Source: an uncultured Alphaproteobacteria bacterium (GTDB lineage: Bacteria; Pseudomonadota; Alphaproteobacteria; HIMB59; GCA-002718135). From it: 64,000 nucleotides of DNA. The notes beneath the pieces were generated by a model. It saw only the letters and a list, made by a program, of their open reading frames with translations, made no database searches and was not told where the DNA came from. The position numbers and the translations under genes were made by a program. The DNA lies in contig CACFOQ010000008.1 of NCBI GenBank assembly GCA_902567855.1, positions 1 through 64,000 on the forward strand, read 5' to 3'. Within the stretch, counting starts at the first letter, position 1; each line of letters opens with the position of its first letter. Positions 19,621 to 36,725 of the stretch are shown here, piece after piece.

Positions 19621-19654
19621 AAATAGCCTGTCTTTTTATTAGGACAGGCTATTT
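19621..19654. terminator. bidirectional terminator between potD and potA
   Basis: A 12-bp perfect stem AAATAGCCTGTC/GACAGGCTATTT with a 10-nt loop, flanked by A and T runs on both sides, so it can stop transcription from both directions. The potA stop codon (19649-19651) lies inside the 3' arm. Confidence 0.88.
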
Positions 19655-20731: not shown

Positions 20732-20736
20732 AATTT

Positions 20737-21546
20737 TTATAATTTCATCGTTATATCTTTCTTTGCTTTCCCCTGTCCAACATTTCTTAACCAGAATGCT
20801 AACAGAACAATAAAGGTAGTAAAAACAATAATTACTGCACCCAAGGCCAATACATGCGGTAATTTCTGAACAAATCTCATTTGACCCCACATATACATAG
20901 GTAATGTTGCGTCACTTCCAGTTAAAAAGAATGCAAGAATAAATTCATCAAAAGAAATAATGAAACTGAGAAGAAGAGCGGCGATTATTCCTGGCAAATA
21001 TAGTGGAAATGAGACTCTAAAAAATGTACCCCACGCATTCTCTCCTAAATCTCTAGAGGCCTCTTCAAGTGAAAAGTCGAAACCTTCAATACGGGCTATA
21101 AGTATTAACATTGCAAAAGGTGTACAAAATAAAGTGTGGCCAATTGTAACTGGAACGAGTCCCAATTTAAATCCAAGATTAACCCAAATTACAAGTATAG
21201 CTACAGCCAAGATAATTTCAGGTATCAAGAAAGGCATCATAATACCTCCATAAGAAATCTTTTCTCCTCTAAATTTATATCGAGCAAATGCCTTCGCTGC
21301 AAAAAGTGCAATTGTTGTACTAACGACACTTGCTACTACTCCTACTTTTATACTCGCCCAAAGTGCTTTATGTAGATTTCTTTTTGACCACATCTCTTCA
21401 TAGTGCTCCGTTGTAAATCCAGCAAGGGGGAAGGACATAAAATTTGCATCATTAAAACTAAATATAGGTAAGAATAAAACTGGTACATAAAGAAAACCAA
21501 AATAAAGAAGAGTATAAATTAGTAATGTATTATTTTTTTCATTCAT
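20737..21546 (-). CDS. potC: PotC-like ABC transporter permease
   Basis: A 269-residue inner-membrane permease with about six helices. It carries the cytoplasmic EAA loop E-A-S-R-D-L-G-E-N-A-W-G-T-F-F (near 161-175), followed by F-P-L-Y-L-P-G-I, where the ATPase docks. The N terminus (Y-V-P-V-L-F-L-P-I-F-S-F-N) is typical of PotC. It is 1 nt downstream of potB and 5 nt upstream of potA. Confidence 0.9.
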   Translation of the reverse strand: MNEKNNTLLIYTLLYFGFLYVPVLFLPIFSFNDANFMSFPLAGFTTEHYEEMWSKRNLHKALWASIKVGVVASVVSTTIALFAAKAFARYKFRGEKISYGGIMMPFLIPEIILAVAILVIWVNLGFKLGLVPVTIGHTLFCTPFAMLILIARIEGFDFSLEEASRDLGENAWGTFFRVSFPLYLPGIIAALLLSFIISFDEFILAFFLTGSDATLPMYMWGQMRFVQKLPHVLALGAVIIVFTTFIVLLAFWLRNVGQGKAKKDITMKL

Positions 21547-21547
21547 T

Positions 21548-22432
21548 TTAAGTTAACCTTTGAGTAAGTCTTTTTGTTACATTCGATACAATTATTGTTA
21601 TGAGCACAACAGTGGTTAGCATAATTGTAGCTGATGCAGCTCCCATAGGAATATTATTTATTTTTCCAAAGTAAGCCTGGATCATATTTGAAAGCATACG
21701 ACCTTCAATTCCTCCAAGTAAGGCTGGAGTCACATAATCACCTACTGTTGGAATGAATATGATTAATATTGCACCTATTACTCCTGGTAACGATAATGGA
21801 AATGTAATTTTCCAAAACACTTCAAATCGGGAGAGTCCAAGATCTCTACCAGCTTCAATAAAAGAAAAGTCAATTTTATCTAACGAAACATACAAAGGCA
21901 ATAAAGCAAACGCAGCCCAAGCGTGCGTAAGAGTAATAACTACTGCGGTCTCTGAGTACATAAGAAATGTAAGAGGTTCGTTAAGAATTCCTGCGTTGAT
22001 CAATGAAGAGTTTATCACACCTTTTGTTCCAAGAATAATCTTCCAAGAAAATACTCTTAATAAATAGGATGTCCAAAAAGGTAAAGTGAGTAAAACAAGC
22101 CAAAGCATTTTATTTTTTTTGACATAAAAAGCGATATAATAGCAAACTGGGTATGCTGTAATAAGTGTAATTAGAGTTACAAGAAATGATATTTTAATTG
22201 ACTTAATAAGAAGTGTAACCAGCAAATTTTTTTGAAAAAAATCAATATATCTTTGAAATGTAAAAGTATAATCAATCTCCATCATACTAACTTGAGTAAA
22301 CATACTAAAGCTCAACATTAATACCATTGGAACAACCATAGCTAAAATGACTAAAATTAAAGCTGGTGATAATAAGGTATAGGCTTTTATATTATCATTT
22401 TTTGCGTAAATTTTTCTCCAACTCTTAATCAT
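21548..22432 (-). CDS. potB: PotB-like ABC transporter permease
   Basis: A 294-residue permease with about six helices and the EAA loop E-A-G-R-D-L-G-L-S-R-F-E-V-F-W followed by F-P-L-S-L-P-G. The extended N-terminal periplasmic segment before helix 2 is typical of PotB. It is encoded 14 nt after the acyl-CoA dehydrogenase stop, so import and catabolism genes share a transcript starting at tetR. Confidence 0.9.
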   Translation of the reverse strand: MIKSWRKIYAKNDNIKAYTLLSPALILVILAMVVPMVLMLSFSMFTQVSMMEIDYTFTFQRYIDFFQKNLLVTLLIKSIKISFLVTLITLITAYPVCYYIAFYVKKNKMLWLVLLTLPFWTSYLLRVFSWKIILGTKGVINSSLINAGILNEPLTFLMYSETAVVITLTHAWAAFALLPLYVSLDKIDFSFIEAGRDLGLSRFEVFWKITFPLSLPGVIGAILIIFIPTVGDYVTPALLGGIEGRMLSNMIQAYFGKINNIPMGAASATIMLTTVVLITIIVSNVTKRLTQRLT

Positions 22433-22446
22433 ATTTTTTACTACAT

Positions 22447-23625
22447 CTATTCAATTAAAGATTTCAAACCTCTTTTATAAAGAGAATTTGCAATTATTAT
22501 TCTATGAATTTCACTCGTCCCTTCCCAAATACGATCTACTCTTAATTCTCTATAATATCGTTCTGCAACATTTTCCCTCATGTACCCTCTTCCTCCAAAT
22601 ATTTGTACTGCGCGGTCTGCAATTTTATTTGCCATTTCAGAGGCTAATAATTTTATCATGGAACATTTTCCATGTAAAATTTTAACATCTTGATTTGAGT
22701 CATGAGCTTTACATATTTCATAAAGCATTAATCTAGTTGAAGCTAATTCATTTACACAATCTGCAAGCATAAATTGTATTGCCTGATAATTTGATATTTT
22801 ATCTCCAAAAGACTCTCTTTCTTTTGCAAAAATTGTTGCTTCAGCAATTAATCTCTCGGCTGCCCCACAGCATCTAGCTGCTATTCCTAATCTTTCATGT
22901 CTAAACCAAGAATGTGTATAGTCCATTCCTATACCTTCATTACCTATTATATTTTTAGAAGGTATAGAAACATTATTAAAACGATAAATACTGTGATGAT
23001 GAGCATAAGTATGACTAAATTTAGGAGTATCAATTAATTCAATACCTTTTGTATCTTTATCAATTATAAAAAGTGAGTGTTTGTCTTTATTTTGACCAGA
23101 TTTAATTTTTGCTTGTAAAAAGAAAAAGTTAGCAAGATTTGCACTAGTCACATACCATTTTTCACCATTTATTATGTATTGATCTCCTTTTTTTTCAGCA
23201 GTAGTTTCTATAGAGCCATCTACATCAGAACCTGCACCTTTTTCGGTAATTGCATAACATTCTTTTTTTGTTCCATTTAAAAGTGGCTTTAAATAATTTT
23301 CTTTTTGAAAGTCATTAAAATTTGCTTCCATCCAATCTTGAGCTTCTGAAAAACACCAACACAAAGCATTAGTAACACGACCAAATTGTTCCCAAATAAT
23401 CATTTGTTCAAACATATTTAATCCTAGCCCTCCATTTTCTTTTGATATTCCCATACCAGGCAGTCCTAGAGAAATTGCAATATCTCGATGTTTTTTTTCT
23501 ATATCTTGTGGTAATTCTCCATCATTTTTTTCAGCATGAACTTCCCAGGGTATAAGTTCATCATTAACAAATTTTCTTATTTTTTTTTGCCACTCTAAGG
23601 CCTTAGGGGTCATTCCACTATACAT
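22447..23625 (-). CDS. acyl-CoA dehydrogenase (1)
   Basis: A 392-residue FAD acyl-CoA dehydrogenase with a normal three-part fold. It has the flavin-contact motif A-I-T-E-K-G-A-G-S-D near 128-137, a C-terminal G-G-R-G-Y-M-R-E segment and I-W-E-G-T-S-E-I-H-R. It introduces a 2,3-double bond in a CoA thioester. Placed between tetR (3 nt) and potB (14 nt), it is tied to the imported substrate. A second, distinct acyl-CoA dehydrogenase lies in the divergent operon, so two different thioesters or two oxidation steps may be involved. Confidence 0.88.
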   Translation of the reverse strand: MYSGMTPKALEWQKKIRKFVNDELIPWEVHAEKNDGELPQDIEKKHRDIAISLGLPGMGISKENGGLGLNMFEQMIIWEQFGRVTNALCWCFSEAQDWMEANFNDFQKENYLKPLLNGTKKECYAITEKGAGSDVDGSIETTAEKKGDQYIINGEKWYVTSANLANFFFLQAKIKSGQNKDKHSLFIIDKDTKGIELIDTPKFSHTYAHHHSIYRFNNVSIPSKNIIGNEGIGMDYTHSWFRHERLGIAARCCGAAERLIAEATIFAKERESFGDKISNYQAIQFMLADCVNELASTRLMLYEICKAHDSNQDVKILHGKCSMIKLLASEMANKIADRAVQIFGGRGYMRENVAERYYRELRVDRIWEGTSEIHRIIIANSLYKRGLKSLIE

Positions 23626-23627
23626 AT

Positions 23628-24281
23628 CTATAAAACATTTTTAAATTGTTTTGGAAAATTTGACTTAATAAATTCAAAGCAAATTTTTTTTGACTGTACT
23701 TTATTAAAAGTATCAGGATCTTCTAATTGATCTAACCATAAACCCATTATTAAAGCTTGAAAACCTCTAGCTATGTTTTTTTCAGATAATTTAACTTTTT
23801 CTTTTTTTATTAAATCTAAAAAGATATTTTCAGTAATTGATTGATAATATAAATCTCGCTCTTTACATATTTGATGATAAGCTGGTTTGTATTTGATTTC
23901 GCTAAAAAATGTAAACCAGACAGCTATTTTTTCTCTGGTACATATTTTTTTACTAAAATCATTCTTTATAATTCCTATTATTTTTTTTCTAGGATCATTC
24001 CCGGCTTTAGAAATACTCTTTTGAAATGAGAGTAGATATTCATTTGAAATAAATTTTAAAGTCTCAATTAATAGTAATTCTTTACTTTTAAAATGGAAAT
24101 TTACTATCCCTTGAGATAATCCTGCTCCTTGAGATACATCTTGCATTGTTAATTGGTGTATTCCTTTTTTTGATAAATTCTTAATCGTTGAAGATATCAA
24201 TTTTAAATTACTATTTTTTTTATTTTCTAATCTAATATTTCTGTGTCTCATAAAATTATAAAAACAATGATAGTTTTTCAT
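23628..24281 (-). CDS. TetR/AcrR family regulator, BetI-like
   Basis: A 217-residue TetR-type repressor. The DNA-binding helix-turn-helix lies around 30-70 (L-T-M-Q-D-V-S-Q-G-A-G-L-S-Q-G-I-V-N-F-H-F). The C-terminal domain contains V-W-F-T-F-F-S-E and K-Y-K-P-A-Y-H-Q-I-C, echoing the BetI family that senses choline. ATG at 24281 gives an 11-residue tail before M-R-H-R; the internal ATG at 24248 is also possible. The palindrome at 24310-24325, between this gene and the divergent operon, is the likely autoregulatory operator, and a second copy lies at 32645. The effector is unknown. Confidence 0.85.
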   Translation of the reverse strand: MKNYHCFYNFMRHRNIRLENKKNSNLKLISSTIKNLSKKGIHQLTMQDVSQGAGLSQGIVNFHFKSKELLLIETLKFISNEYLLSFQKSISKAGNDPRKKIIGIIKNDFSKKICTREKIAVWFTFFSEIKYKPAYHQICKERDLYYQSITENIFLDLIKKEKVKLSEKNIARGFQALIMGLWLDQLEDPDTFNKVQSKKICFEFIKSNFPKQFKNVL

Positions 24282-24344: not shown

Positions 24345-25973
24345 ATGAACAAATCTAAATATGATGTTGCAATTATTGGTGGTGGTCATAATGGGCTCAC
24401 CACAGCATGCTATTTAGCAAAAGCTGGACTAAAAGTAGTTGTTGTAGAAAGACATGATTATGTGGGAGGAGCAGCTGTCAGCAGAGAGCTTCATCCAGGT
24501 TGGACATATTCTAACTGTTCATACGTCTGTAGTTTGCTTAGACCTGAAATTTTTAGAGATTTAGAATTATCTAAACACGGTTTACAAATTATACCTTACG
24601 AAGGTAGTGCAAGCATGCTTAATGATGGGAGATTTTATGCACATTACCAAGATCATGATTTAACTTATAGATCTATTGCTCAATTTTCCAAAAAAGATGC
24701 TGAAGCCTATGATAGATTTGGAAAAGATGTGATGCGACAGTGTAAGATTATTAAACCTCTTTTAAAGATGACACCTCCTGATCCTACTTCATTTTCTCCA
24801 AAGGATATAATGAGTTTATTTGAATTTGCTAAATATTTTGCTGCAAAAGATGAGTTAGGAGGCTTAGGTGAGAAAGAAATATACGATACAATTCGTTTTT
24901 GGACAATGAGTGTTAGGGATTATCTCGAAGAATATTTTGAATCAGAAATTGTAAAAGTGCATTTAGCAGGATCTGCTATCATTGGAACAGCTTTAGGTCC
25001 TTATTCTCCAGGCTCTGCATATGTATTGCTTCATCATTATATGGGAGAAGTAGATGGTACTGTTGGAGCGTGGGGATACGCTAGAGGAGGTATGGGTTCA
25101 ATTACAAAAGCTATGGCATCCTCTTTTAAATCAAAAAATGGAGAAATTAAAGCTGGTTCGCCAGTCACAAAAATTCTTATTAAAAATAATAAAAGTTATG
25201 GTCTTGTTCTTGAAAATGGAGATGAAATTTATGCCGATAAAATAGTTTCAAACCTTGATGTCAAAAGAACCTTTTTAAAAGTTGTTGAGGAAAAAGAATT
25301 ACCTAATGATTTTTACAAAGCAGTAAAAAATTTTAAAATCCGAGGATCTTCAGGAAAGTTAAATATTGCTCTTGATGATCTACCTATTTGGAAAAGTATT
25401 CCAGAGGGTGATCCAGCTGGAACAGGTGACTTACATATAACTCAGAATATTGAAGAAATGGAGGGAGCATATGATGATTGGAAAGATGGAAAGTGGTCTC
25501 AATTTCCATATGTTGATATGTGTATTCCAAGTATAAATGATCCCACTATGGCCCCTCAAGGAAAACACTATATGTCTGTTTTTATTCAATATGTTCCTTA
25601 CAATTTAGCAGATGGAGGGTGGACAGAAGAAAAGCGTCTTGAATTTGGCAAACATGTGATGGGTAGGATTGGAAATTATTCAACAAACTTCAATGATATC
25701 ATTAATCATGCAGAAATTAGAACTCCTAAAGAATTAGAAGCTGAAGTTGGTTTAACAGAAGGAAATATTTTTCAAGGTGAGCTTACTATGGATCAGTTAA
25801 TGTTTAACCGCCCTGTACCTGGTTATGCTCAATATAAAACACCTATAAAAAATCTTTATATGTGTGGTTCTAGCACCCATCCTGGTGGAGGAGTAATGGG
25901 AGCTCCAGGAGCAAATGCTGCAAGAGAAATATTAAAAGATTTAAACAAAAAATTGTCAACGCATTACATATGA
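24345..25973 (+). CDS. PYROXD2/phytoene-desaturase-like FAD oxidoreductase (1)
   Basis: A 542-residue COG1233 flavoprotein. It has the dinucleotide-binding I-I-G-G-G-H-N-G at 10-17, an E-R-H-x-x-V-G-G-A-A motif and the C-terminal FAD clasp S-S-T-H-P-G-G-G-V. The family covers carotenoid desaturases and amine or unknown oxidases such as PYROXD2; nothing else here suggests carotenoid synthesis. It overlaps the next flavoprotein gene by 4 nt (ATGA), so the two are coupled and may form a heteromer. Next to a GcvT-like gene it could oxidise an N-methyl group, as dimethylglycine dehydrogenase does. That role is a hypothesis. Confidence 0.8.
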   Translation: MNKSKYDVAIIGGGHNGLTTACYLAKAGLKVVVVERHDYVGGAAVSRELHPGWTYSNCSYVCSLLRPEIFRDLELSKHGLQIIPYEGSASMLNDGRFYAHYQDHDLTYRSIAQFSKKDAEAYDRFGKDVMRQCKIIKPLLKMTPPDPTSFSPKDIMSLFEFAKYFAAKDELGGLGEKEIYDTIRFWTMSVRDYLEEYFESEIVKVHLAGSAIIGTALGPYSPGSAYVLLHHYMGEVDGTVGAWGYARGGMGSITKAMASSFKSKNGEIKAGSPVTKILIKNNKSYGLVLENGDEIYADKIVSNLDVKRTFLKVVEEKELPNDFYKAVKNFKIRGSSGKLNIALDDLPIWKSIPEGDPAGTGDLHITQNIEEMEGAYDDWKDGKWSQFPYVDMCIPSINDPTMAPQGKHYMSVFIQYVPYNLADGGWTEEKRLEFGKHVMGRIGNYSTNFNDIINHAEIRTPKELEAEVGLTEGNIFQGELTMDQLMFNRPVPGYAQYKTPIKNLYMCGSSTHPGGGVMGAPGANAAREILKDLNKKLSTHYI

Positions 25974-27436
25974 AAAAATTTGATGTAATAATAATTGGAG
26001 GCGGACATAATGGTTTAGTTGCATCTTCATATCTTGCCAAAAAAGGTAAAAAAGTTTTGGTAATTGAAAAAAATGAACATGTTGGAGGATTGGCAGAATA
26101 TGCAAATTCACTAAATTTTATCTCTCCAATCATTAAAAAAGAATTAAATATCAATATTCATAATATTAAAGATACAGATTACATCATATCTCTTGAAGAT
26201 AATCAAAATCATACAATCTTAGAGGATAAAAACGGTAAGCTATCTTTTGTAAAAACAAATGCTGATGAGAATGATCAGAAAACATTTTTATCAATTATTA
26301 ATAACTACAAATTATTTTCAAAAACTCTTGGTTCTTTTATGTATCAAAAGCCCCCAAGAGTTAAATCAGGTAAAAGATCAGACTTATTTCAATTAATGTC
26401 CATGGGATGGAAAATTAGAAAATTAGGTAAAAAAAATATGCGAGAGCTATTAAGAGTTATTGGTTTAAATATTGCTGATGATTTAGAGGATAATTTAAAT
26501 AACGATAACTTAAAGGGTTTATTATCCCATGAATCAGTTTTAGGCTCAAACTTGGGTCCTAGATCTCCTGGCTCAATATTAACTTTACTTTATAAGCAAG
26601 CAATCAATGATAATATTTTTAATTTAAAGAAGATAGAAGTTACAAACTATATTAATCAATTAGAAGATTGTTGTAAAAAAAATACAGTAGAAATAATTAA
26701 ATCCTCTGAAGTTAGAAAAATAATAACTAAAAACAACTCTGTTACTGGCATTCAATTAAATAATAATGAGGTTATAGAATCAAAATGTGTTATGTCTAAT
26801 GCTGACCCCAAAACAACTTACTTAAATTTATTAGGTGCAGAAATATTAGATACTGATTTTATTAGAAGAATTAAAAATTTTAGAAACAAAGGAAATGTTG
26901 CTAAACTTGAATTAGTTTTAGAAAATGAGATTAATATTAAAAATATTGATAAGAAAATGTATGGAAAATTTATTTACGCTCCAAATATAAAATACATAGA
27001 ACATGCATTTAATGCCAATAAGTATAATCATTATTCTAAAAATCCATGTTTGGAATTTTATGTTAATGATAACACTTTGTCAGCAAACATTTATTATGTC
27101 CCATATTTGATTAATGCTAGTCATCAAGAAAATGAAATAATTGAAAAGTGTGTTGCTGTTTTAAGTAAATTTATTCCAGATATGAAAATAAGAAAACAAG
27201 AACTTATTACTCCAAATCAAATGGAGGAAAAATATAATATATCTGGTGGTCATTGGCATCACGGTGATTTAGAAATAGATCAATTATTAATGATGAGACC
27301 TTTTTATGGATCTTCTCAATATTCAACTCCTGTTAACGGTTTATATTTATGCAGTGCTGGCACTCATCCTGGAGGAGGTTTAACTGGTATCAACGGTCTT
27401 AATGCAGCAAAAAAAATAATAGAGGACTCAAAATAA
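25970..27436 (+). CDS. PYROXD2/phytoene-desaturase-like FAD oxidoreductase (2)
   Basis: A 488-residue paralogue of the preceding protein with the same ends: I-I-G-G-G-H-N-G at 8-15 and S-A-G-T-H-P-G-G-G-L near the C terminus. It is about 50 residues shorter and clearly diverged in the N-terminal third. The tandem, overlapping arrangement suggests two unequal subunits of one enzyme rather than redundant copies. Its stop shares one base with the GcvT-like start. The substrate is unknown. Confidence 0.78.
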   Translation: MKKFDVIIIGGGHNGLVASSYLAKKGKKVLVIEKNEHVGGLAEYANSLNFISPIIKKELNINIHNIKDTDYIISLEDNQNHTILEDKNGKLSFVKTNADENDQKTFLSIINNYKLFSKTLGSFMYQKPPRVKSGKRSDLFQLMSMGWKIRKLGKKNMRELLRVIGLNIADDLEDNLNNDNLKGLLSHESVLGSNLGPRSPGSILTLLYKQAINDNIFNLKKIEVTNYINQLEDCCKKNTVEIIKSSEVRKIITKNNSVTGIQLNNNEVIESKCVMSNADPKTTYLNLLGAEILDTDFIRRIKNFRNKGNVAKLELVLENEINIKNIDKKMYGKFIYAPNIKYIEHAFNANKYNHYSKNPCLEFYVNDNTLSANIYYVPYLINASHQENEIIEKCVAVLSKFIPDMKIRKQELITPNQMEEKYNISGGHWHHGDLEIDQLLMMRPFYGSSQYSTPVNGLYLCSAGTHPGGGLTGINGLNAAKKIIEDSK

Positions 27437-28638
27437 TGAATACAGAAAAAATTTCATATAAAAAACCTCTATTAGAAACACCTTTTCATAAAAGAACATC
27501 TGAGCATTGTTATGCAAATGATTGGTATAGGTGGGCTGGTTACAAAGTTGCCAAAGAATACTCCTCAACTGAACTTGAATATACTTCAATGAGAAACACT
27601 GCAGGAGTAATAGATATAACTCCAATGCATAAATATGAAATTAAAGGTAAAGATGCAAAAAAATTTATTAATAAATTAATTACAAAAAATATTACTAATA
27701 TTCAATCTAATCAAGTAGCCTACGGCATATGGTGCAATGAAGATGGAATGGTGATTGATGATGGAACAATATTTTGCTTAAACGAAAATCATTATAGAAT
27801 TTTTTGCGCTGAGAGAAATCTTAATTGGTTTTGTGATACAGCTACTGGATTTAATGTAACTATTGAAGATATAAGCTCATCAATTGCTGCTTTAGCTTTT
27901 CAAGGTCCTTTATCTTGTAAAATTTTAAATCTTTTAAAAGTAGAAAATATAGAAAACCTTAAACCTTTTCATTTTGATAATTACAAACTTGAAAATCAAA
28001 ATGTCACAATTTCAAGAACAGGCTTTTCTGGAGATTTAGGTTATGAAATCTGGTGTGATCCTTCTCAGGCTATCGATGTATGGGACAGCTTATTTAAGTT
28101 TAACAGAGATTATAAAGTACTTGCTGCTGGAATGAACTCACTTGAGATGGTGAGAATTGAAGCAGGATTTATCCAGCCAAATGCAGATTTTATGTCTGCA
28201 GAACAGGCTTTAAGACCAAATAGAATGAGAAACCCGTATGAATTAGGTTTAGGTTGGTTAGTAAATCTAGATAAAGAGTATTTTACTGGGAAACAGGCTT
28301 TAATTAGACACAAAGAAAAAGGGCCTGAAAAAAAACTTGTAGGATTGGATGTTGAGGGAGATAAGCCTGCTATGGGATCTGTCCTCTATGATAATAGTAA
28401 GAAAAATATAGCCAAAGAAATTGGTATAGTGACAGCAGCAATGTGGTCCCCTGTTCTTAAATCTAATATTGCAATTGGATTTGTTAACAAAGAATATTAT
28501 AAGTTGGGATCTAATGTTTATGCTGAAATTTACCATCCAGAAGAATTGGATTATAGAAAAATTTGGGCTGAATGCAAAGTGGTAAAAAAGCAATTTTTTA
28601 ACAATCCAAGAAGGAATGCTATACCTGCATTTATATAG
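27436..28638 (+). CDS. GcvT/DmdA-family folate-dependent aminomethyl- or demethyltransferase
   Basis: A 400-residue protein of the glycine-cleavage T-protein family. It begins with P-F-H-K-R-T-S and has G-K-D-A-K-K-F-I, F-Q-G-P-L-S, R-T-G-F-S-G-D-L-G-Y-E-I-W and G-L-G-W-L-V-N-L motifs in family order. Members accept a one-carbon unit from an amine or methyl group onto tetrahydrofolate; DmdA demethylates DMSP. The N terminus and neighbours differ from DmdA, and it is coupled to two flavoproteins. A role accepting formaldehyde produced by N-demethylation is therefore more likely than DMSP demethylation. This is an inference. Confidence 0.8.
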   Translation: MNTEKISYKKPLLETPFHKRTSEHCYANDWYRWAGYKVAKEYSSTELEYTSMRNTAGVIDITPMHKYEIKGKDAKKFINKLITKNITNIQSNQVAYGIWCNEDGMVIDDGTIFCLNENHYRIFCAERNLNWFCDTATGFNVTIEDISSSIAALAFQGPLSCKILNLLKVENIENLKPFHFDNYKLENQNVTISRTGFSGDLGYEIWCDPSQAIDVWDSLFKFNRDYKVLAAGMNSLEMVRIEAGFIQPNADFMSAEQALRPNRMRNPYELGLGWLVNLDKEYFTGKQALIRHKEKGPEKKLVGLDVEGDKPAMGSVLYDNSKKNIAKEIGIVTAAMWSPVLKSNIAIGFVNKEYYKLGSNVYAEIYHPEELDYRKIWAECKVVKKQFFNNPRRNAIPAFI

Positions 28639-28650
28639 GGTAGATATTAT

Positions 28651-29802
28651 ATGGAATTTAATCTTTCAGAAGAACAGAATCTTTTAATTGATACTACTAA
28701 ATCATTCGTAAAAGCAGAATTATTGCAACATGAAGAATTATTAGAAAAAACAAATAATTTACCAAAAGAATTGTATGATGAAATTAAGAAAAAAAGTATT
28801 GATGCAGGCTTATATGCTTGCAATATGCCAATTGATCATGGTGGTGGTGGTTTAAATGCTTTTGATTTAACCTTAGTTGAAAAACATCTTGGATTTGCAT
28901 CACTTGCTTTAGCAGAAATTGCTTGGAGACCACAAAATATCTTAATGGCCTGCGAAGGTGAACTAGTAGATGAATATTTAAAACCGGCTATTACTGGAGA
29001 GAGAAAAGATTGTATTGCTATGACTGAACCTGGCGCTGGTTCAGATTTAAGAGGTATGAAAACGAAAGCAGTTAAAGATGGCAATGATTGGATTATCAAT
29101 GGAACAAAACATTTTATATCTAATGCTCACATCTCTGACTTTGTTGTTCTTTTTGCTTCAACAGGTGAAGATGATAAAGGTAGAAATTTACTTTCTTGTT
29201 TTTTAGTTGATTTAAAACAAAAAGGAGTTGAAGTTGCTAAAGGATATGACTGTGTCTCTCACAGAGGATATGTAAATAATATTATACATTTTAATGATTG
29301 TAGAATTCCTAGAAAAAATATTCTTGGAGAAAAAGATAAGGGTTTTGAATTAATGAATGTTTGGTTGGAAGCTACTAGATTAACTGTTGCGGCTACATCA
29401 GTATCTAGAGCAGAAAGAGCTTTTGATATAGCATTGGATTGGTCAGCTAATAGAAAACAATTTGGAAAAGTCATTGGAAAATTTCAAGGTGTTTCATTTA
29501 AACTAGCTGATATGGCTACAGAAATTAAATTAGCAAATTTAATGTTAATGGAATCAGCTTGGAAGATTGATCAAAAAACATTAACTTCCCAAGATGCAGC
29601 AATGACAAAATTATTTTGCACTGAAATGTTAAGCAGAGTTTCAGATGAAGCAATTCAAATTTGCGGAGGAATGGGATTAATGGCAGATATACCTCTTGAA
29701 AGAATATGGCGTGATGCAAGAATAGAAAGAATTTGGGAAGGCACAAGTGAAATTCAACGGCATATTATTTCACGTTCTTTATTAAGACCCCTTGGAGCAT
29801 AA
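28651..29802 (+). CDS. acyl-CoA dehydrogenase (2)
   Basis: A 383-residue FAD acyl-CoA dehydrogenase with A-M-T-E-P-G-A-G-S-D-L near 124-134, R-K-Q-F-G-K-V-I-G-K-F-Q in the C-terminal domain, and I-W-E-G-T-S-E-I-Q-R at the end. It follows the GcvT-like gene by 12 nt and precedes a CoA ligase and a CaiD homologue. Those neighbours make gamma-butyrobetainyl-CoA or a similar amino-acyl-CoA a reasonable substrate. The sequence alone does not show specificity. Confidence 0.88.
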   Translation: MEFNLSEEQNLLIDTTKSFVKAELLQHEELLEKTNNLPKELYDEIKKKSIDAGLYACNMPIDHGGGGLNAFDLTLVEKHLGFASLALAEIAWRPQNILMACEGELVDEYLKPAITGERKDCIAMTEPGAGSDLRGMKTKAVKDGNDWIINGTKHFISNAHISDFVVLFASTGEDDKGRNLLSCFLVDLKQKGVEVAKGYDCVSHRGYVNNIIHFNDCRIPRKNILGEKDKGFELMNVWLEATRLTVAATSVSRAERAFDIALDWSANRKQFGKVIGKFQGVSFKLADMATEIKLANLMLMESAWKIDQKTLTSQDAAMTKLFCTEMLSRVSDEAIQICGGMGLMADIPLERIWRDARIERIWEGTSEIQRHIISRSLLRPLGA

Positions 29803-29805
29803 TCT

Positions 29806-31842
29806 TTGAACTTAAAAAAACTTTTTAGACCAAAAAGCTTGGCTATAATAGGAGGCTATTGGGCAGACTTTGTTTATGATGGAAATAAAACTATTGGTTA
29901 TAAAGGTAAAGTTTGGCATATAAATCCTTCACGAAAAAGTACCAAAAGAAAAAAATATTATAAAAATATTAAAGATCTGCCAGAAATACCTGATTGTGTT
30001 TATCTTGCCGTTTCAAGAGATCAAACTGTAAAATTAATTAAAGATATATCTAATATGGGTGTTGGAGGAACAGTTTGCCTGGCTTCAAGATTTTCTGAAC
30101 TTAATTCAAAAGAAGGAAAAGATAAAACTAATGAACTTATAAAAAACTCTGGTAAGATGCCTTTTCTGGGGCCAAATTGTTATGGATTTATCAATTATTT
30201 AGATAAAATTTCTGTATGGTCAGATCAAGTTTCTGGAAAACCAACAAAAAAAGGTGTTGCTATTATATGTCAGAGCGGAACAATTGGTAATACTATTAGT
30301 TTTAACAACAGATCTTTGCCTATTGGCTACATAATTTCTTTAGGCAATCAATCAAAAATAACCATTGAAGATGCAATTAGTTATGCCCTTGATGATAACA
30401 GAGTAACCGCCATTGGTATTTATGCAGAAAGTTTTACCAATACTGCAAAATTAATTAAAGTATTTAAAAAATCTAAGTTAAAGAACATACCTATAGCTAT
30501 AGTCAAAGTAGGCAGATCTAAAATTTCATCTAAAACAATTTTAACACATACTGGCTCTCTTAGTGGGAAAGAAGATATTTATGATTCTTTGTTTCAAAGA
30601 ATGGGCGTAGCAAAATGCAATACATTAGGTGAATTATGTGAAATTTTAAAATTATTTCATACACATGGAGTTTTAAAAAATGATCAAATTTCAATAATGG
30701 GGCCATCTGGAGGAGATATGGCTATGATAGGTGATGTGGCAGAATCTTTATCATTAAAATTTGGCAAAATACCTCCAAAAATAAAAAATGATTTAAAAAA
30801 AGTTAATCACCCAAGCGTGATAATATCAAATCCTTTTGATTTACAAACATACAATTGGAATGATCCTGAGAATCTAGAAAAAACATTTAAATTAATATTC
30901 AAAACAAATTTTGCTTTAAATGCGCTGATGTTAGATCTTCCAAATATAGAAGATTGTGATACTGAAGAGTGGGATGCAATAGTAGATAAGTTTATAAAAT
31001 CTTCAAAAATAAAAAAAAATGGAGCAATTATTTCTTCACTTTCAGATACTCTTCCAAAATATTTAAGAGAAAAATGTCTAAAGTATAACGTTGTTCCTCT
31101 TCAAGGCATGTCAGAAAGTTTATTAGCTATAAGTAATGCAATAAAAATTGGAAAAGTATGGAAGAATTTTACTGATATAAAAATTCCTGAGGAAATACCA
31201 AATCTTAAAAAGAAAATAAAAACATATTCAGAATATGAATCAAAGTTAATTTTAAAGAAAAACAAAATACCTACTCCAAAATCCTTAGTTACAAATAAAA
31301 AGAATATATTTCGAGATTCTAAAAAAATTGGATTTCCTTTAGTGGCAAAAATAAATTCAAATACAGTTTTTCATAAAACTGAAATTGGAGGTGTTGTAAC
31401 TAATATTAATAGTGAAAAAGAATTAAAGAAAAAAACAAATAAATTTACTGGCAATATCTTAATTGAAAAAATGATAACTGATAATGTCTTTGAAATGATT
31501 GTAGGAATAAAAAACGATAATGAATTTGGTCCTACTATAATTTTAGGAGCTGGAGGAATTTATACTGAATTATTTAAAGATACAACCACCCTACTCTTAC
31601 CTTTAACTAAAAGAATGATTGTGGAAGAGATAAAAAAACTAAAATTTAGTAAAATATTATTTGGTTTTAGAGGAAAAAATAGTGGTGATTTAGATGCTTT
31701 AGTTAATTCAATATTAAAAATTGCTAAATTTGCTGAAAATAATTATGATAAAATTTCAGAAGTTGATATAAATCCATTAATAGTTTGTAAAAAAGGCAAA
31801 GGGGTGTTTGCCGTAGATGCATTAATACATTATTTTAAATAA
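29806..31842 (+). CDS. NDP-forming acyl-CoA synthetase (acetate-CoA ligase family, fused subunits)
   Basis: A 678-residue fused ligase: CoA-binding Rossmann domain (1-135), succinyl-CoA-ligase-like flavodoxin domains (140-440) with the phosphohistidine motif T-H-T-G-S, and a C-terminal ATP-grasp domain (about 460-678) containing G-A-G-G-I-Y-T-E-L-F. Such ligases make acyl-CoA from acid, CoA and ATP with release of ADP. The start is a TTG at 29806, the only start directly before the Rossmann strand. Within the operon it would activate the carboxylic acid for the dehydrogenase and hydratase. Confidence 0.85.
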   Translation: MNLKKLFRPKSLAIIGGYWADFVYDGNKTIGYKGKVWHINPSRKSTKRKKYYKNIKDLPEIPDCVYLAVSRDQTVKLIKDISNMGVGGTVCLASRFSELNSKEGKDKTNELIKNSGKMPFLGPNCYGFINYLDKISVWSDQVSGKPTKKGVAIICQSGTIGNTISFNNRSLPIGYIISLGNQSKITIEDAISYALDDNRVTAIGIYAESFTNTAKLIKVFKKSKLKNIPIAIVKVGRSKISSKTILTHTGSLSGKEDIYDSLFQRMGVAKCNTLGELCEILKLFHTHGVLKNDQISIMGPSGGDMAMIGDVAESLSLKFGKIPPKIKNDLKKVNHPSVIISNPFDLQTYNWNDPENLEKTFKLIFKTNFALNALMLDLPNIEDCDTEEWDAIVDKFIKSSKIKKNGAIISSLSDTLPKYLREKCLKYNVVPLQGMSESLLAISNAIKIGKVWKNFTDIKIPEEIPNLKKKIKTYSEYESKLILKKNKIPTPKSLVTNKKNIFRDSKKIGFPLVAKINSNTVFHKTEIGGVVTNINSEKELKKKTNKFTGNILIEKMITDNVFEMIVGIKNDNEFGPTIILGAGGIYTELFKDTTTLLLPLTKRMIVEEIKKLKFSKILFGFRGKNSGDLDALVNSILKIAKFAENNYDKISEVDINPLIVCKKGKGVFAVDALIHYFK

Positions 31843-31846
31843 TTAT

Positions 31847-32623
31847 ATGAATAAACCTATAAAAACTAAAATTGAAGGATCAATATTAGAAGTAACAATT
31901 GATCGTCCAAAAGCGAACGCTATAGACTCTAAAACTAGCATAATATTAGGAGATATTTTTGCTGATTTTAGAGATAATCCTAAACTTAAAGTTGCTATAA
32001 TAACTGGAGGTGGTGAAAAATTTTTTTCTGCTGGATGGGATCTTAAAGCTGTAAATGAAGGAGAAAGTGCTGATGCAGATTATGGCGTAGGTGGATTTGG
32101 AGGATTGCAAGAATTACCAAATATGAATAAACCTATTATTTCTGCTGTTAATGGTATTGCATGTGGAGGTGGTTTTGAAATCATGATTTCAGCAGATATT
32201 ATTATTGCTGCAGATCACGCTACTTTTGCTTTACCTGAAATTAATGTGGGTGTCATAGCTGATGCGGCAACTATAAAACTAAGAAGAAGAATTCCCTATC
32301 ATGTAGCTGTCGAATTTTTAATGACAGGTAGGTGGATGGATGTCAAAGAAGCAAAGCACTGGGGTTTAGTTAATGAAATAGTTGATAAAAAAAATTTATT
32401 AAAAAGATCCTGGGAAATTGCTGATAAAATTTCAAAAGGACCTAATTTAATATATTCATCAATCAAAGAAGTTTTAAGAGAAACAGAAAATGAAAAGGAG
32501 ATACCTTCTTTTGATATTCTTCGATCCTTAGAAACTGTAAAGAAGGTTTATGGAAGTGAAGACTTAAAAGAAGGCGCCTCTTCTTTTGTAAAAAAAACTG
32601 ATCCAAATTGGAAAGATAAATAG
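31847..32623 (+). CDS. CaiD-like carnitinyl-CoA dehydratase / crotonase family
   Basis: A 258-residue crotonase that resembles CaiD closely along its length. The N-terminal G-S-I-L-E-V-T-I-D-R-P-K-A-N-A-I-D, the G-E-K-F-F-S-A-G-W-D-L-K-A oxyanion region and the end D-P-N-W-K are all CaiD-like. Glu111 and Glu131 stand where the family's catalytic acids are expected. CaiD interconverts crotonobetainyl-CoA and carnitinyl-CoA. With the ligase and dehydrogenase upstream, the operon could convert gamma-butyrobetaine to carnitinyl-CoA. It ends 56 nt before the second operator and aminotransferase operon. Confidence 0.78.
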   Translation: MNKPIKTKIEGSILEVTIDRPKANAIDSKTSIILGDIFADFRDNPKLKVAIITGGGEKFFSAGWDLKAVNEGESADADYGVGGFGGLQELPNMNKPIISAVNGIACGGGFEIMISADIIIAADHATFALPEINVGVIADAATIKLRRRIPYHVAVEFLMTGRWMDVKEAKHWGLVNEIVDKKNLLKRSWEIADKISKGPNLIYSSIKEVLRETENEKEIPSFDILRSLETVKKVYGSEDLKEGASSFVKKTDPNWKDK

Positions 32624-32679: not shown

Positions 32680-34056
32680 ATGAAAAACGATTATATTAGT
32701 GAAATTCATAAAAAAGATAGATTAGTTCTTCATCCTTATGAAGATACAAATACAAGAGGAACATATAACCGTAAACTAATTACAAAATCAGATAATATTT
32801 ATTTATATGATGAAAATGGGACTGAATATATTGATGGTCCTGGAGGAATGTGGTGTAATAATATTGGCCACGGCAATAAGGAAATTGGAGAAGCCGTAAA
32901 AAAACAACTTGAAAAATTAGAATATTGTAGTCCTTTTTCAGAATCTACTGAAATATCAGCTGAATTAGCTTCGGTTTTATCAGAGTTATCTCCCGGTGAT
33001 CTGAATACAGTTTTTTTTACCACTGATGGATCAACTGCAAATGATACTGCTTTAAGATTTATAATGTTTTATAATAATATGCTAGGTCGTCCTAATAAAA
33101 AACATATCATTACAAGAAATAAAGCTTATCACGGCAGTACCTATTTAACAGGATCAATAACTGGGAAAGATAGAGAAAAAAATAATTTTGATTTTGAAAA
33201 AGATTTTATCCATCATTTAAGTGCTCCTTTAGAGTATAGAAGAAAAGATAATCAAACTGTGGAAGAGTTTTGTGATGATCTAGTGAAAGAATTTGAAAAT
33301 AAAATTCTTGAGCTTGGTTCTGAAAATGTCGCTGCTTTTATAGCAGAACCTATTATGGCATCTGGAGGATGTATTGTTCCACCAACGGGTTATTTAAAAA
33401 GAATATGGGAAATTTGTAAAAAAAATGATGTACTTTTTATATCTGATGAAGTTGTTACTGGCTTTGGAAGAATAGGTCATTTTTTTGCTTCAGAAAAAGT
33501 ATTTGGAGTAACACCTGACATTATAACTTGTGCTAAAGGTATCACTTCAGGATATATGCCTTTGGGTGCTGTTTTATTTTCAGATAAATTGCTTAATGAT
33601 CTTAAAAATGATTCTGCTCTTTTTTTTCATGGATATACATATTCTGGTCACCCCGCTTGTTGTGCAGCAGCATTAAAGAATATAGAAATTATTAAAAGAG
33701 ATAAAATTCTAGAACATGTTCAAAATATAGAACCTTACTTTCATCAACAATTAAAAAAATTATACGATTTACCAATTGTGGGAGATATAAGAGGCAAAGG
33801 ACTTATGGCTGGAATAGAATGCGTGATTAATAAAGACAGTAAAGAGGCTCTAGTATTAGATAAAGCTATAGGCTCTAGAATCGATGAAGAGTCATTAAAA
33901 TTGGGATTAATAATTCGTCCACTTTATCATATATGTGTTTTATCTCCTGCTTTAATTATTTCAAAAAATCAAATTGATACACTTGTAGATAAATTATATT
34001 TAGCAATTAAAAATACAATAACACAATTAGAAGTAGAGGGCTTATGGAAAGGTTAA
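32680..34056 (+). CDS. class III (omega) aminotransferase
   Basis: A 458-residue PLP enzyme with the fold-type I class III pattern. It has the D-G-x-x-G-M-W-C-N-N-I-G-H-G segment (52-65), the Asp256 in F-I-S-D-E-V-V-T-G-F-G-R and the Schiff-base Lys286 in C-A-K-G-I-T-S-G-Y. Relatives move terminal amino groups of putrescine, taurine, GABA or beta-alanine to pyruvate or 2-oxoglutarate. It is the first gene of the operon after operator 2. In this setting it could deaminate a fully demethylated omega-amino acid or a diamine. The substrate is not determined. Confidence 0.85.
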   Translation: MKNDYISEIHKKDRLVLHPYEDTNTRGTYNRKLITKSDNIYLYDENGTEYIDGPGGMWCNNIGHGNKEIGEAVKKQLEKLEYCSPFSESTEISAELASVLSELSPGDLNTVFFTTDGSTANDTALRFIMFYNNMLGRPNKKHIITRNKAYHGSTYLTGSITGKDREKNNFDFEKDFIHHLSAPLEYRRKDNQTVEEFCDDLVKEFENKILELGSENVAAFIAEPIMASGGCIVPPTGYLKRIWEICKKNDVLFISDEVVTGFGRIGHFFASEKVFGVTPDIITCAKGITSGYMPLGAVLFSDKLLNDLKNDSALFFHGYTYSGHPACCAAALKNIEIIKRDKILEHVQNIEPYFHQQLKKLYDLPIVGDIRGKGLMAGIECVINKDSKEALVLDKAIGSRIDEESLKLGLIIRPLYHICVLSPALIISKNQIDTLVDKLYLAIKNTITQLEVEGLWKG

Positions 34057-34065
34057 AACTTCTTA

Positions 34066-35253
34066 ATGTTTTCCAAAATTAAAAGGTATTTTGACTTTAG
34101 TTCAATAAATTCTAGTATAAAATATTTATCTATTGTTGCTTTCTTTACAGGCACAGTTCTTGGTTATTTTTTCACAATAATAGTAATTTTACAAAAATAC
34201 GCAGGTTATTCAGAATCAACAATTGGTTTAATTGCTTCTAGTTTTTCTTTTGGGTTAATGTCTGCAGGATTTTTTGTGTCTAAAACTTTAGATAGATTTG
34301 GATTATTTAATACATTGATATTCTCAGTATGTATTCAAGCCTTATGTGTTATTTCTATGTTTGTATATTTTAATCCAATAAATTTTGTGATTTGTCATTT
34401 TATCATGGGACTTACGGGAGGCATGAATTGGATGACAATGGATACTTGGGTAAATATTGTTTCTAATAACAATAATAGAGGAAAATCTATAGGTTTATAT
34501 AATTCAGCAATTTCAATTGGTTTTGGTGTAGGGCCATTAATTGTAGCTGTTTTAGGAAGTAAAGGATCTTTACCAATTTTTATATGCTTAATAATAATGG
34601 CTTTCAGAATTTTTATGATTATTTTAATAAAGAAACATATCGAAAATGTAGAAATACCTAAGCAAAAGAAACAAATTAGTTTTTCATTCATTGTAATGGC
34701 CCCTTTTGTTTTTGTTGCTATATTTATTGGGGGAATTAATGACTCTACTTTTGGTGCTTTATTTCCTGCATTTATGATAAATGAATTCTTTTCTGACAGA
34801 CAAATTGGTTTCTATTATTTTTTAGGAGCTTTTGCTGGTGTCTTATCTCAACCTTTTGTAGGAGCATTAAGTGATAAAATAGATAAAAGAAAATTAATTT
34901 TTATTTTTCTTTGTGGAAATATTATATGGCCACTACTTCTATTAAAAACTATAAACTTAGATTATGCTGTTTACATTTCAGTTATTATATGGGGTTGTTC
35001 AAGTATTAGTTTGTATACTGTGACTTTGGCCTATTTAGGACAAAGGATAAAAATCAAGGAAATAGCAATAGCTACTTCATTATTCATCATAATATATGAA
35101 GCAGGAGAATTCATAGGGCCTATTTCCGTAGGTATAGTTATGGACAGTATGGGAAATAATGGATTTATTTATAGCCTATTAATCTTTACTAGTTTTAGTA
35201 TAATAATTGGATTTATCAGATCAGTTTTAAAAAATGCAAATAAAAATAATTAA
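34066..35253 (+). CDS. MFS transporter
   Basis: A 395-residue membrane protein with about 12 hydrophobic helices in two halves. It has an MFS loop-like S-K-T-L-D-R-F-G near 70-77 and the equivalent L-S-D-K-I-D-K-R-K in the second half. It lacks a signal peptide. It is 9 nt after the aminotransferase and overlaps the GNAT gene by 20 nt. A role in uptake or export of the pathway substrate is inferred only from location. Confidence 0.8.
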   Translation: MFSKIKRYFDFSSINSSIKYLSIVAFFTGTVLGYFFTIIVILQKYAGYSESTIGLIASSFSFGLMSAGFFVSKTLDRFGLFNTLIFSVCIQALCVISMFVYFNPINFVICHFIMGLTGGMNWMTMDTWVNIVSNNNNRGKSIGLYNSAISIGFGVGPLIVAVLGSKGSLPIFICLIIMAFRIFMIILIKKHIENVEIPKQKKQISFSFIVMAPFVFVAIFIGGINDSTFGALFPAFMINEFFSDRQIGFYYFLGAFAGVLSQPFVGALSDKIDKRKLIFIFLCGNIIWPLLLLKTINLDYAVYISVIIWGCSSISLYTVTLAYLGQRIKIKEIAIATSLFIIIYEAGEFIGPISVGIVMDSMGNNGFIYSLLIFTSFSIIIGFIRSVLKNANKNN

Positions 35254-35680
35254 AGCAAAAAAAGATAATATTAAGGATGTTGGCATTCTATTTGATTTAT
35301 ATAGACAATTTTATAAATATAATCCTGAATTAAAAAAATCTACGAAATATATTAAAGAAAGAATTTCTAAAAAAGACTCAACTATTTTTGTATGCTATCA
35401 AGACAAGGAGGCATGTGGATTTGTGCAATTATATGAAACTTTTGATTCCCTTAATATTAATAAAAAATTAATCTTATATGATTTGTTTGTAAAAAAAATT
35501 TTTAGAAAAAAAAGAATAGGTAGAAAATTAATGAATACTGCAAAAAAATTTGCAGTTAAAAAGAAAATTAAAATAATAGAATTATCTACTGCAATTACTA
35601 ATAAGAAGGCTCAATCACTTTATGAATCTCTTGAATATAAAAGAGATAAAGAATATTATAACTATTATTTAGAATTATAA
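35234..35680 (+). CDS. GNAT family N-acetyltransferase
   Basis: A 148-residue protein with the GNAT fold: central strand L-Y-D-L-F-V, followed by the acetyl-CoA pyrophosphate loop R-K-K-R-I-G-R-K-L, then a helix and the final N-K-K-A-Q-S-L-Y-E-S-L-E-Y strand-helix typical of the family. It is very Lys-rich. Its start lies inside the end of the MFS gene. The acceptor is unknown; an amine of the pathway is possible. Confidence 0.8.
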   Translation: MQIKIIKAKKDNIKDVGILFDLYRQFYKYNPELKKSTKYIKERISKKDSTIFVCYQDKEACGFVQLYETFDSLNINKKLILYDLFVKKIFRKKRIGRKLMNTAKKFAVKKKIKIIELSTAITNKKAQSLYESLEYKRDKEYYNYYLEL

Positions 35681-35682
35681 AT

Positions 35683-36252
35683 ATGAAAACTGTTAAATTT
35701 AATGAAATGAAAGATGGGGATAAAGAAGATTATGAACTTCTTGCTAAATTTGAAGATAAATACATAGAAGGTACGGCTGATAGAGTTATTCGTATTTTAA
35801 AAGGTTTAGACAGTTCATTAGGAGGTTATAAAGTTTCTAGATTAGAACACTCTTTACAAACTGCATCAAGAGCACTGAGAGATAATGCATCAGAAGAAAT
35901 GATAGTCGCAGCCCTATTACATGATATAGGAGATGAAATAGCTCCATTAAATCATTCAGAAATATCTGCAGCAGTATTAAGGCCTTTTGTTTCTGAAAAA
36001 ACTCATTGGATAGTTCAAAAACATGGATTATTTCAATCTTATTATTATAATCATCATTATGGAAATGATCGAAATTTAAGAGATAAATATAAAGATCATC
36101 CTTTTTTTATAGATACTGTTAATTTTTGCTCAAAGTGGGATCAAAATTCTTTTGATCCAAATTATGAAACTATTCCTCTTAAAGATTTTATTCCTTTAGT
36201 TTATAAAATTTTTAATAGAGACCCTCATAAACACGTATATTTAGGGCTTTAA
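35683..36252 (+). CDS. HD-domain protein, PhnZ/TmpB-type mixed-valent di-iron oxygenase-like
   Basis: A 189-residue HD-domain protein. Candidate di-iron ligands are His56, His80-Asp81 (H-D-I-G), His91 (N-H-S-E), His114 (K-H-G) and Asp153 (K-W-D-Q-N-S-F-D). The 24-residue spacing from His56 to His80 equals that in PhnZ, and the overall length is similar. PhnZ and TmpB cleave C-P bonds of hydroxylated aminophosphonates; TmpB releases glycine betaine. The protein lies at the end of an operon with an aminotransferase and transporter, not with phosphonate genes. An oxygenase role is an inference, and a plain phosphohydrolase cannot be excluded. Confidence 0.65.
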   Translation: MKTVKFNEMKDGDKEDYELLAKFEDKYIEGTADRVIRILKGLDSSLGGYKVSRLEHSLQTASRALRDNASEEMIVAALLHDIGDEIAPLNHSEISAAVLRPFVSEKTHWIVQKHGLFQSYYYNHHYGNDRNLRDKYKDHPFFIDTVNFCSKWDQNSFDPNYETIPLKDFIPLVYKIFNRDPHKHVYLGL

Positions 36253-36257
36253 TTATA

Positions 36258-36725
36258 TTATTTTTTTAATTTATTAATAAGATGTAAATTTCCTGGTTTA
36301 AAATTATTTTTATTATCTTCTATAAAATTTTTAATTAAGCCACTTTTTGATTCCTCAAATTCAGTTACTTTACGAGAATTCAAATCAACATATAATGAAC
36401 AAACCTCTGTTGTAGCTGCTAAGTATTTCTCTGACTTGTGAATCATTTCAAGTTTATAAACAATACGTTTTTTATCAAAATCAATAAAAAGTAAATTAAT
36501 ATCAACTTCATCTCCAACTTTAACTTCCATGTCATAAGTTGTGTGCGATTCTACAGCAAAAGTAGTTCTTTTTTCAATTTTAGCTGCATCTTCTCCTATA
36601 TTAAATTTTTGCAGCAAAACCTCCCAAGCAGAATCAAAAAGATGAATATAAAAAGCAAGGTTCATATGACCGTTATAATCAGTCCATTCAGATTTAACGC
36701 GACCTGTTTTTAAATAAATACTCAC
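36258..36725 (-). CDS. hotdog thioesterase, betainyl-CoA thioesterase (CdhB)-like
   Basis: A 155-residue 4-hydroxybenzoyl-CoA-thioesterase-fold protein. It begins [13 protein letters not shown], with the catalytic Asp before the Y-N-G-H-M-N motif, as in the thioesterases fused or adjacent to L-carnitine dehydrogenases. Those release glycine betaine from betainyl-CoA. The start is a GTG. It is divergent from a BKACE gene 43 bp away, which would produce betainyl-CoA from dehydrocarnitine, giving a consistent pair. Confidence 0.72.

Follow-up and report, generated by a model that had tools for sequence, protein, structure and literature searches.

The locus and the FP1–FP2–GcvT trio

The 64,000-nucleotide stretch of DNA considered here (hereafter the window; contig CACFOQ010000008.1, G+C content 28.6%) stems from a 1.35-Mb draft genome, 82% complete, of an uncultured alphaproteobacterium, and on its forward strand carries three consecutive genes, together termed the trio: FP1 (24345–25973, 542 amino acids), a flavin adenine dinucleotide (FAD) protein of the COG1233/CrtI fold; FP2 (25970–27436, 488 amino acids), its fast-evolving COG1233 partner; and the gene of a GcvT-like tetrahydrofolate (THF) protein of 400 amino acids (27436–28638). 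FP1 and FP2 overlap by 4 bp, FP2 and the GcvT gene by 1 bp, and at spacings of 3–12 bp there follow downstream an acyl-CoA dehydrogenase (ACAD1, 28651–29802), an ADP-forming acyl-CoA ligase with CoA-binding, Succ_CoA_lig and ATP-grasp_5 domains (29806–31842), and a CaiD-like protein, a putative crotonobetainyl-CoA hydratase (31847–32623). All six genes, from which an initial annotation had assembled a candidate new pathway, are intact open reading frames at these positions. Gene families were assigned by Pfam and NCBIfam models, with the curated cut-offs of the latter applied, complemented by alignments for the trio and by structural models for FP1 and FP2.

By fold and by FAD motifs, both flavoproteins belong to the COG1233/CrtI–PYROXD2 superfamily. 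FP1 carries GGGHNG at residue 12, GNIFQGE at 473 and HPGGGVMGAPG at 512; FP2 keeps both FAD motifs (GGGHNG at 10, HPGGG at 466), and its GGHWHHG at 426 stands where FP1 has EGNIFQG. The two are CrtO/CrtI-like proteins that score far below every curated NCBIfam cut-off, and carotenoid desaturation was rejected as their function because this holds for all carotenoid equivalog models as well. The longest Pfam match of FP1 is to Amino_oxidase (17–380); the DAO family (PF01266) is matched in the N-terminal Rossmann stretch only, at residues 7–54 of FP1 and 5–47 of FP2, and not over the full length. AlphaFold models of FP1 (pLDDT 81, pTM 0.84) and FP2 (pLDDT 85, pTM 0.85) find their best structural match in 4rep, a CrtI-type gamma-carotenoid desaturase, the next matches including the amine oxidases NicA2, MAO and putrescine oxidase. 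In most lineages FP2 has changed at several times the rate of FP1, yet it retains its FAD motifs, as if it were a scaffold or specificity subunit.

The third protein, composed of a GCV_T and a GCV_T_C domain, had initially been described as GcvT/DmdA-like, a label of which the second half is imprecise: the nearest NCBIfam model is the THF domain of trimethylamine N-oxide (TMAO) demethylase with 249.9 bits, and GcvT itself reaches 228 bits, as against 156.8 bits for DmdA. The protein scores below the cut-offs of both the DmdA model NF009133 (cut-off 410) and the glycine cleavage T-protein model TIGR00528 (181.7 bits, cut-off 235.85). Asp109 and Tyr96 align with Asp96 and Tyr83 of the Thermotoga maritima T-protein, and the position of its Arg227 appears to be taken by leucine, as in TMAO demethylase. 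The aspartate lies in a DDGT motif in most members and in ADG in two divergent members of family f122; together with the GcvT fold, this predicted catalytic residue points to THF chemistry. A separate homologue of GcvT length is encoded on contig C4 of the same genome, and about ten GcvT-domain matches occur in this small genome as a whole, several of them in long frames of the size of DMGDH or SoxA, which amounts to a strong investment in methylamine oxidation.

Conservation and companions of the trio

When 84,980 species were searched with an alignment of FP1, 80 loci were obtained in Alpha-, Beta- and Gammaproteobacteria, which are those nearest to one query and not a random sample. FP1, FP2 and GcvT follow one another in the same order in 75 of them, and in the other five a contig ends within 438 bases. 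FP1 and FP2 mostly overlap by 1–14 bases, FP2 and GcvT are joined by overlaps or short gaps, and GcvT is a gene of its own, unfused to a flavoprotein, in all 75 complete trios. Within the order of the organism, a GcvT orthologue is present in 20 of 150 genomes, and in the loci fetched FP1 and FP2 precede it, contig ends apart. At the class level, where Aestuariispira is among the relatives and FP1 and FP2 of one genome (L083) are identical to those of L117, which identifies the class as Alphaproteobacteria, FP2 and GcvT adjoin every fetched FP1 homologue above about 50% identity, again apart from contig ends; paralogous COG1233 genes at 35–46% identity (L097, L099–L102) mostly stand without these partners, and one at 43% (L098) has them. 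In a maximum-likelihood tree, FP1 and FP2 each form one clade with 100/100 support, and the branching orders of the two are similar. An apparent FP1–FP2 fusion of 1064 amino acids in Roseovarius mucosus DSM 17069 (L112:11500–11720) was discarded as a frameshift, the C-terminus of FP1 continuing in another frame after a run of G; this shift at the end of FP1, which joins the two in frame, is either an assembly error or real.

FP1–FP2–GcvT is thus a real conserved gene unit, far from chance. The initial annotation had taken the two coupled COG1233 flavoproteins and GcvT for one unit, and the overlaps, the 75 intact loci among 80 and the two clades bear this out; the neighbourhood survey, which had been set beforehand as a test, finds the three together in other genomes.

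The partners of the trio were counted in the 56 loci of at least 19 kb. A TetR regulator is found in 53, a class III aminotransferase in 49, an ABC transporter ATPase in 44, a Rieske oxygenase in 30 and a methyltransferase in 24 of them, so that a TetR protein, the aminotransferase, a PotFGHI-type importer and a GbcA/CntA-like Rieske oxygenase may be called the usual company. The trio-side Rieske proteins tested have their closest relatives in carnitine monooxygenase, stachydrine demethylase and GbcA, all of which act on quaternary N-methyl compounds. The nearest entry to the aminotransferase in the Protein Data Bank (PDB) is 3i5t. An S-adenosylmethionine-dependent methyltransferase, similar to ArsM or to sarcosine/dimethylglycine methyltransferases, lies beside the trio at L081:26126–26899 and in some 30 further loci, an odd partner for a demethylation operon.

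In the window, the aminotransferase (32680–34056, above the cut-off of the NCBIfam model PRK07036) follows the CaiD-like gene on the same strand, succeeded with small gaps or overlaps by an MFS transporter (34066–35253, by family match), a GNAT-type acetyltransferase (35234–35680; similar GNAT genes lie beside the trio in other loci, the one in L080 being annotated as such) and an HD-domain protein, by NCBIfam a distant relative of TmpB/PhnZ (35683–36252). The initial annotation therefore ended the operon too early, since the same-strand run goes on to 36252, and its gene set lacked the most regular enzyme partner, the class III aminotransferase. Upstream, on the reverse strand, lie the divergent TetR gene (23628–24281; BetI-like, 101.7 bits, below the cut-off), a second acyl-CoA dehydrogenase, ACAD2 (22447–23625), homologues of which at 52–58% identity adjoin the trio in eight loci (Kiloniella, Porticoccaceae, Halieaceae and others), and a PotABC-type ABC transporter recognized by family match (19649–22432; ATPase 19649–20752, permeases 20737–21546 and 21548–22432). 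Its neighbour on the forward strand encodes a substrate-binding protein (18510–19598), by family match and alignment a distant PotF homologue devoid of polyamine-binding motifs. Upstream of the latter, a glutamine-synthetase-like ligase and an amidase occupy 15513–16898 and 16957–18432; GlnS-like genes recur beside gammaproteobacterial trios and in f1 genomes that lack the trio.

Gene content, order, conservation and co-occurrence, together with family membership, the FAD motifs and the aspartate, are direct observations, and from them we infer a complex, its chemistry, its substrate and its electron acceptor. The company of TetR regulator, aminotransferase, importer and Rieske oxygenase argues for THF-linked N-demethylation of a methylamine, possibly derived from a quaternary compound, with subsequent transamination of the freed amine; taken in order, Rieske oxygenase, flavoprotein plus GcvT, and aminotransferase suggest that methyl groups are removed from the nitrogen step by step before transamination. 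FP1, acting together with its paralogue FP2 as an obligate partner, would oxidise an N-methyl group of a secondary or tertiary methylamine by hydride transfer to FAD, and the iminium or formaldehyde so formed would be trapped by the GcvT subunit as 5,10-methylene-THF. After several rounds the primary amine would be left, which the class III aminotransferase would convert to an aldehyde, and where a GbcA/CntA-like Rieske oxygenase is present, it would first produce the tertiary amine from a quaternary betaine. N-demethylation as such, which had been suggested at the outset with transfer of the one-carbon unit to THF and which fits the context of oxygenase, aminotransferase and importer, is regarded as probable.

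A different chemistry is conceivable, in which FP1 and FP2 desaturate or isomerise a carbon chain and GcvT moves an intact methyl group to THF in the manner of DmdA. The fold of the flavoproteins, closest to the CrtI-type desaturases, speaks in its favour, as does the fact that the GcvT homologues DmdA and LigM transfer methyl groups without any flavoprotein. The bit scores of the GcvT protein, with their preference for TMAO demethylase and GcvT over DmdA, and the retained T-protein aspartate run counter to it; moreover, the aminotransferase partner fits dealkylation to an amine, and we know of no direct methyl transfer from an ammonium group to THF by a GcvT fold. This alternative is accordingly considered improbable.

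The CoA genes and the carnitine route

The three CoA genes behind the trio behave differently. A CoA ligase occurs in 9 and a CaiD-like gene in 2–3 of the 80 trio loci, and in two f1 genera (L040, complete, and L196, cut at a contig end) GcvT is directly followed by the aminotransferase, with ligase, ACAD1 and CaiD missing. Where window-type genes do stand beside a trio, they tend to come with others: ACAD1 in L122, L128 and L167 (54–59% identity), CaiD in L128 and L167 (57–61%) and a beta-keto acid cleavage enzyme (BKACE) in L128, L136 and L167 (50–53%), the Peteryoungia locus L167 showing the order ACAD1–ligase–CaiD–BKACE–CDH, where CDH denotes carnitine 3-dehydrogenase. The CDH proteins of L167 (630.7 bits) and L122 (595.8 bits) pass the cut-off of 592 for this enzyme. 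The CaiD-like protein of the window scores 287.6 bits against the crotonobetainyl-CoA hydratase model (cut-off 500), and both it and ACAD1 stay below the cut-offs of the CaiD/CaiA models.

Further members of the same set are found in the window genome itself. A thioesterase (36258–36725, reverse strand) matches the C-terminal domain (positions 345–483) of carnitine 3-dehydrogenase, and next to it lies a BKACE gene (36769–37659, forward strand; Pfam and the loci of relatives), proposed to cleave dehydrocarnitine. A dehydrogenase domain of CDH is encoded on contig C2 (L190:9644–10639, G000:C2:115646–116632; 360.8 bits to NF005716), and it and the window thioesterase cover complementary parts of that model. 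In relatives the two domains are near neighbours; in L167 and L122 they are fused. CDH is present in 11 of 17 trio genomes as compared with 55 of 372 in the class, or by genus in 7 of 11 as compared with 42 of 273 (Fisher p ≈ 0.0003, uncorrected for kinship). f1 genomes lacking the trio keep the HD protein, thioesterase, BKACE and CDH at the same locus, from which it follows that carnitine degradation is the core of the locus and the trio an accessory cassette. For the same reason the HD protein was dismissed as part of the trio pathway, as it stays with thioesterase and BKACE in these relatives and goes with the carnitine core; a homologue with 53% identity lies beside the trios in L118 and L122.

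Ligase, ACAD1 and CaiD are best seen as a separate module, because they are absent from L040 and L196, are rare beside other trios and sit with CDH and/or BKACE elsewhere. They fit the known route from gamma-butyrobetaine via carnitine to glycine betaine, a gene set (ligase, acyl-CoA dehydrogenase, CaiD-like, CDH, BKACE, thioesterase) that occurs in this one genome and is clustered in relatives. The ligase is proposed to be a gamma-butyrobetaine–CoA ligase and ACAD1 a gamma-butyrobetainyl-CoA dehydrogenase; nested between GcvT and the aminotransferase, they and the CaiD-like protein would convert gamma-butyrobetaine to carnitine, which CDH, encoded elsewhere in the genome, BKACE and thioesterase would take on to glycine betaine.

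The initial annotation had instead read all six genes as successive steps in the breakdown of a single N-methyl amino acid, the acid that remains after demethylation going to the CoA enzymes. The tight one-strand spacing, which most of the 19 syntenic relatives examined share with the window, would agree with such a single pathway; its probability is very low, given that the CoA genes are missing in L040 and L196 while GcvT and aminotransferase stay adjacent, and that they are rare beside other trios and travel with CDH and BKACE elsewhere. A single new pathway made of exactly this gene set is thus not upheld, nor is the processing of a remaining acid, as in L167, L122 and L128 the CoA enzymes accompany CDH and/or BKACE. 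Two other assignments were rejected: a glutarate/5-aminovalerate betaine route (aminotransferase, aldehyde dehydrogenase, ligase, glutaryl-CoA dehydrogenase), as ACAD1 has closer relatives than the glutaryl-CoA dehydrogenases and the CoA genes go along with the carnitine genes; and a nitrogen analogue of DmdABCD, as the GcvT protein is distinct from DmdA and the CoA genes can be separated from the trio. Beside the CDH gene on C2 lie a DddP-like gene (L190:8344–9624; 362.7 bits, cut-off 600) and a GbcA-like Rieske oxygenase (L190:14144–15325); on contig C10 a dioxygenase resembling TmpA and gamma-butyrobetaine hydroxylase (L191:5333–6415; 337 bits, TmpA cut-off 400) is close to a second GbcA-like Rieske oxygenase (L191:7485–8588, G000:C10).

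Substrate and relation to known systems

The carnitine genes nearby speak for gamma-butyrobetaine, along with the dimethyl and methyl compounds derived from it, as substrates of the trio, which would lead from gamma-butyrobetaine over dimethyl- and methyl-4-aminobutyrate (GABA) to GABA and on to succinate semialdehyde. The gamma-butyrobetaine family is the most likely choice and methylated putrescine its main rival, both with a four-carbon backbone; a C4 betaine as the actual substrate is put forward tentatively.

The same N-demethylase could act on an N-methylated putrescine or polyamine brought in by a polyamine-type importer, the trio (with the Rieske oxygenase for quaternary forms) removing the methyl groups and a transaminase or a Puu-like gamma-glutamyl route deaminating the product. 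Trimethylated putrescine would also supply gamma-butyrobetaine by way of 4-trimethylaminobutyraldehyde, and the presence of the CoA module would thereby be accounted for. A PotF/SpuD-like binding protein accompanies the trio in Gammaproteobacteria and Kiloniella, with the NW-x-DY, W-x-GD and WFD motifs kept in L144; nearby are a GlnS resembling gamma-glutamylputrescine synthetase, a PuuC-like aldehyde dehydrogenase, a DAO protein and a class I amidotransferase, and the PDB neighbours of the aminotransferase after 3i5t include putrescine, polyamine and GABA transaminases. That said, the Puu-like matches all stay below the curated cut-offs of their models, the binding protein of the window is of the distant type without polyamine motifs, to which the rhizobial one is closer, and to our knowledge abundant natural methylated putrescines have not been established in seawater. 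A putrescine-type substrate is therefore judged rather unlikely.

Taken as a whole, the best explanation is that FP1–FP2–GcvT is a three-subunit THF-linked N-demethylase, with C4 betaines as its likeliest substrates, a reading to which we give an even chance. Several points weigh against it. The assignment is drawn from gene content, families and context, and oxidation of a C–N bond is not given by the fold, as the FP1/FP2 superfamily also desaturates carbon chains. A Rieske gene is absent from the window operon, and the two GbcA-like Rieske genes of the genome lie on other contigs and are 23–30% identical to the trio-side ones. The binding proteins of gammaproteobacterial trio loci look polyamine-specific and ill-suited to a zwitterionic betaine, CDH is missing in 6 of the 17 trio genomes (some of them incomplete), and no genuine FP1–FP2 fusion was found, the Roseovarius candidate being a frameshift.

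Searches of a limited body of literature for the trio, for operons with PYROXD2 and for betaine pathways that combine a Rieske oxygenase with an aminomethyltransferase gave no description or biochemical function of the trio. It may well, with the scales about level, represent a previously undescribed class of THF-linked N-demethylases, in which a CrtI-fold heterodimer feeds GcvT, widespread in roseobacters, rhizobia and marine Gammaproteobacteria, and filling the oxidative gap that lies between Rieske demethylation of the betaine type and transamination. Methylated amines and betaines make up a major share of marine and plant-derived organic nitrogen, and a conserved demethylase annotated merely as 'NAD(P)/FAD-dependent oxidoreductase' and 'aminomethyltransferase' would be overlooked in reconstructions of their turnover. 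The proposal is directly testable in strains from culture collections, the carriers including Kiloniella laminariae DSM 19542, Shimia gijangensis DSM 100564, Mesorhizobium loti DSM 2626, Shinella granuli DSM 18401 and Peteryoungia aggregata.

Among known systems, DMGDH, SARDH, DMGO and MABO would share with the trio the flavin-dependent oxidation of an N-methyl group and a GcvT-fold THF site, the difference being that theirs is a DAO flavoprotein, mostly fused to GcvT, whereas the trio consists of a COG1233/CrtI-type pair and three separate genes. The best characterised parallel is MABO, which converts N-methylaminobutyrate to 4-aminobutyrate, the likely substrate of a transaminase thought to follow (PMC6122326). 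TMAO demethylase (Tdm) provides the nearest model for the GcvT protein, and its catalytic domain is missing from the trio. A precedent for a stand-alone GcvT protein encoded with an N-demethylating oxygenase is DmmD in dmmDABC (PMC5520151), although its partners DmmABC are unrelated to those of the trio. SAR11_1303/1304, a stand-alone aminomethyltransferase beside a monomeric sarcosine oxidase (PMC3160333), likewise encodes its flavoprotein and its GcvT protein apart from each other, also in a marine genome of small size, but with a single DAO-type sarcosine oxidase.

SoxBDAG and MgdABCD are multi-subunit flavoenzymes with a GcvT-like part; in contrast, the window operon has no SoxB, SoxD or SoxG homologues, and its GcvT is not fused to an N-terminal part of SoxA. 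Mgd takes part in homarine catabolism according to a paper that cites the work on the homarine pathway, which argues for homarine demethylation by genes other than the trio. DmdABCD also combines a GcvT-like gene with CoA ligase, acyl-CoA dehydrogenase and crotonase, but in the window GcvT is not DmdA, the ligase is ADP-forming, flavoproteins are present and the CoA genes group with carnitine genes. The CoA genes resemble by family (ligase, acyl-CoA dehydrogenase, CaiD-like, BKACE, thioesterase, CDH) the aerobic gamma-butyrobetaine route of strain HK4, in which carnitine is formed in analogy to fatty acid degradation (PMC2131755), joined to that from carnitine to glycine betaine, except that in the window genome the CDH domain and the thioesterase domain lie at two different loci. 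Demethylation by a flavoprotein with GcvT is thus a known principle, and what appears to be new, as far as the literature searched can tell, is the replacement of the DAO flavoprotein by a separate COG1233/CrtI-type pair; if the chemistry is as proposed, evolution has come upon this principle repeatedly, starting from flavoproteins of different fold.

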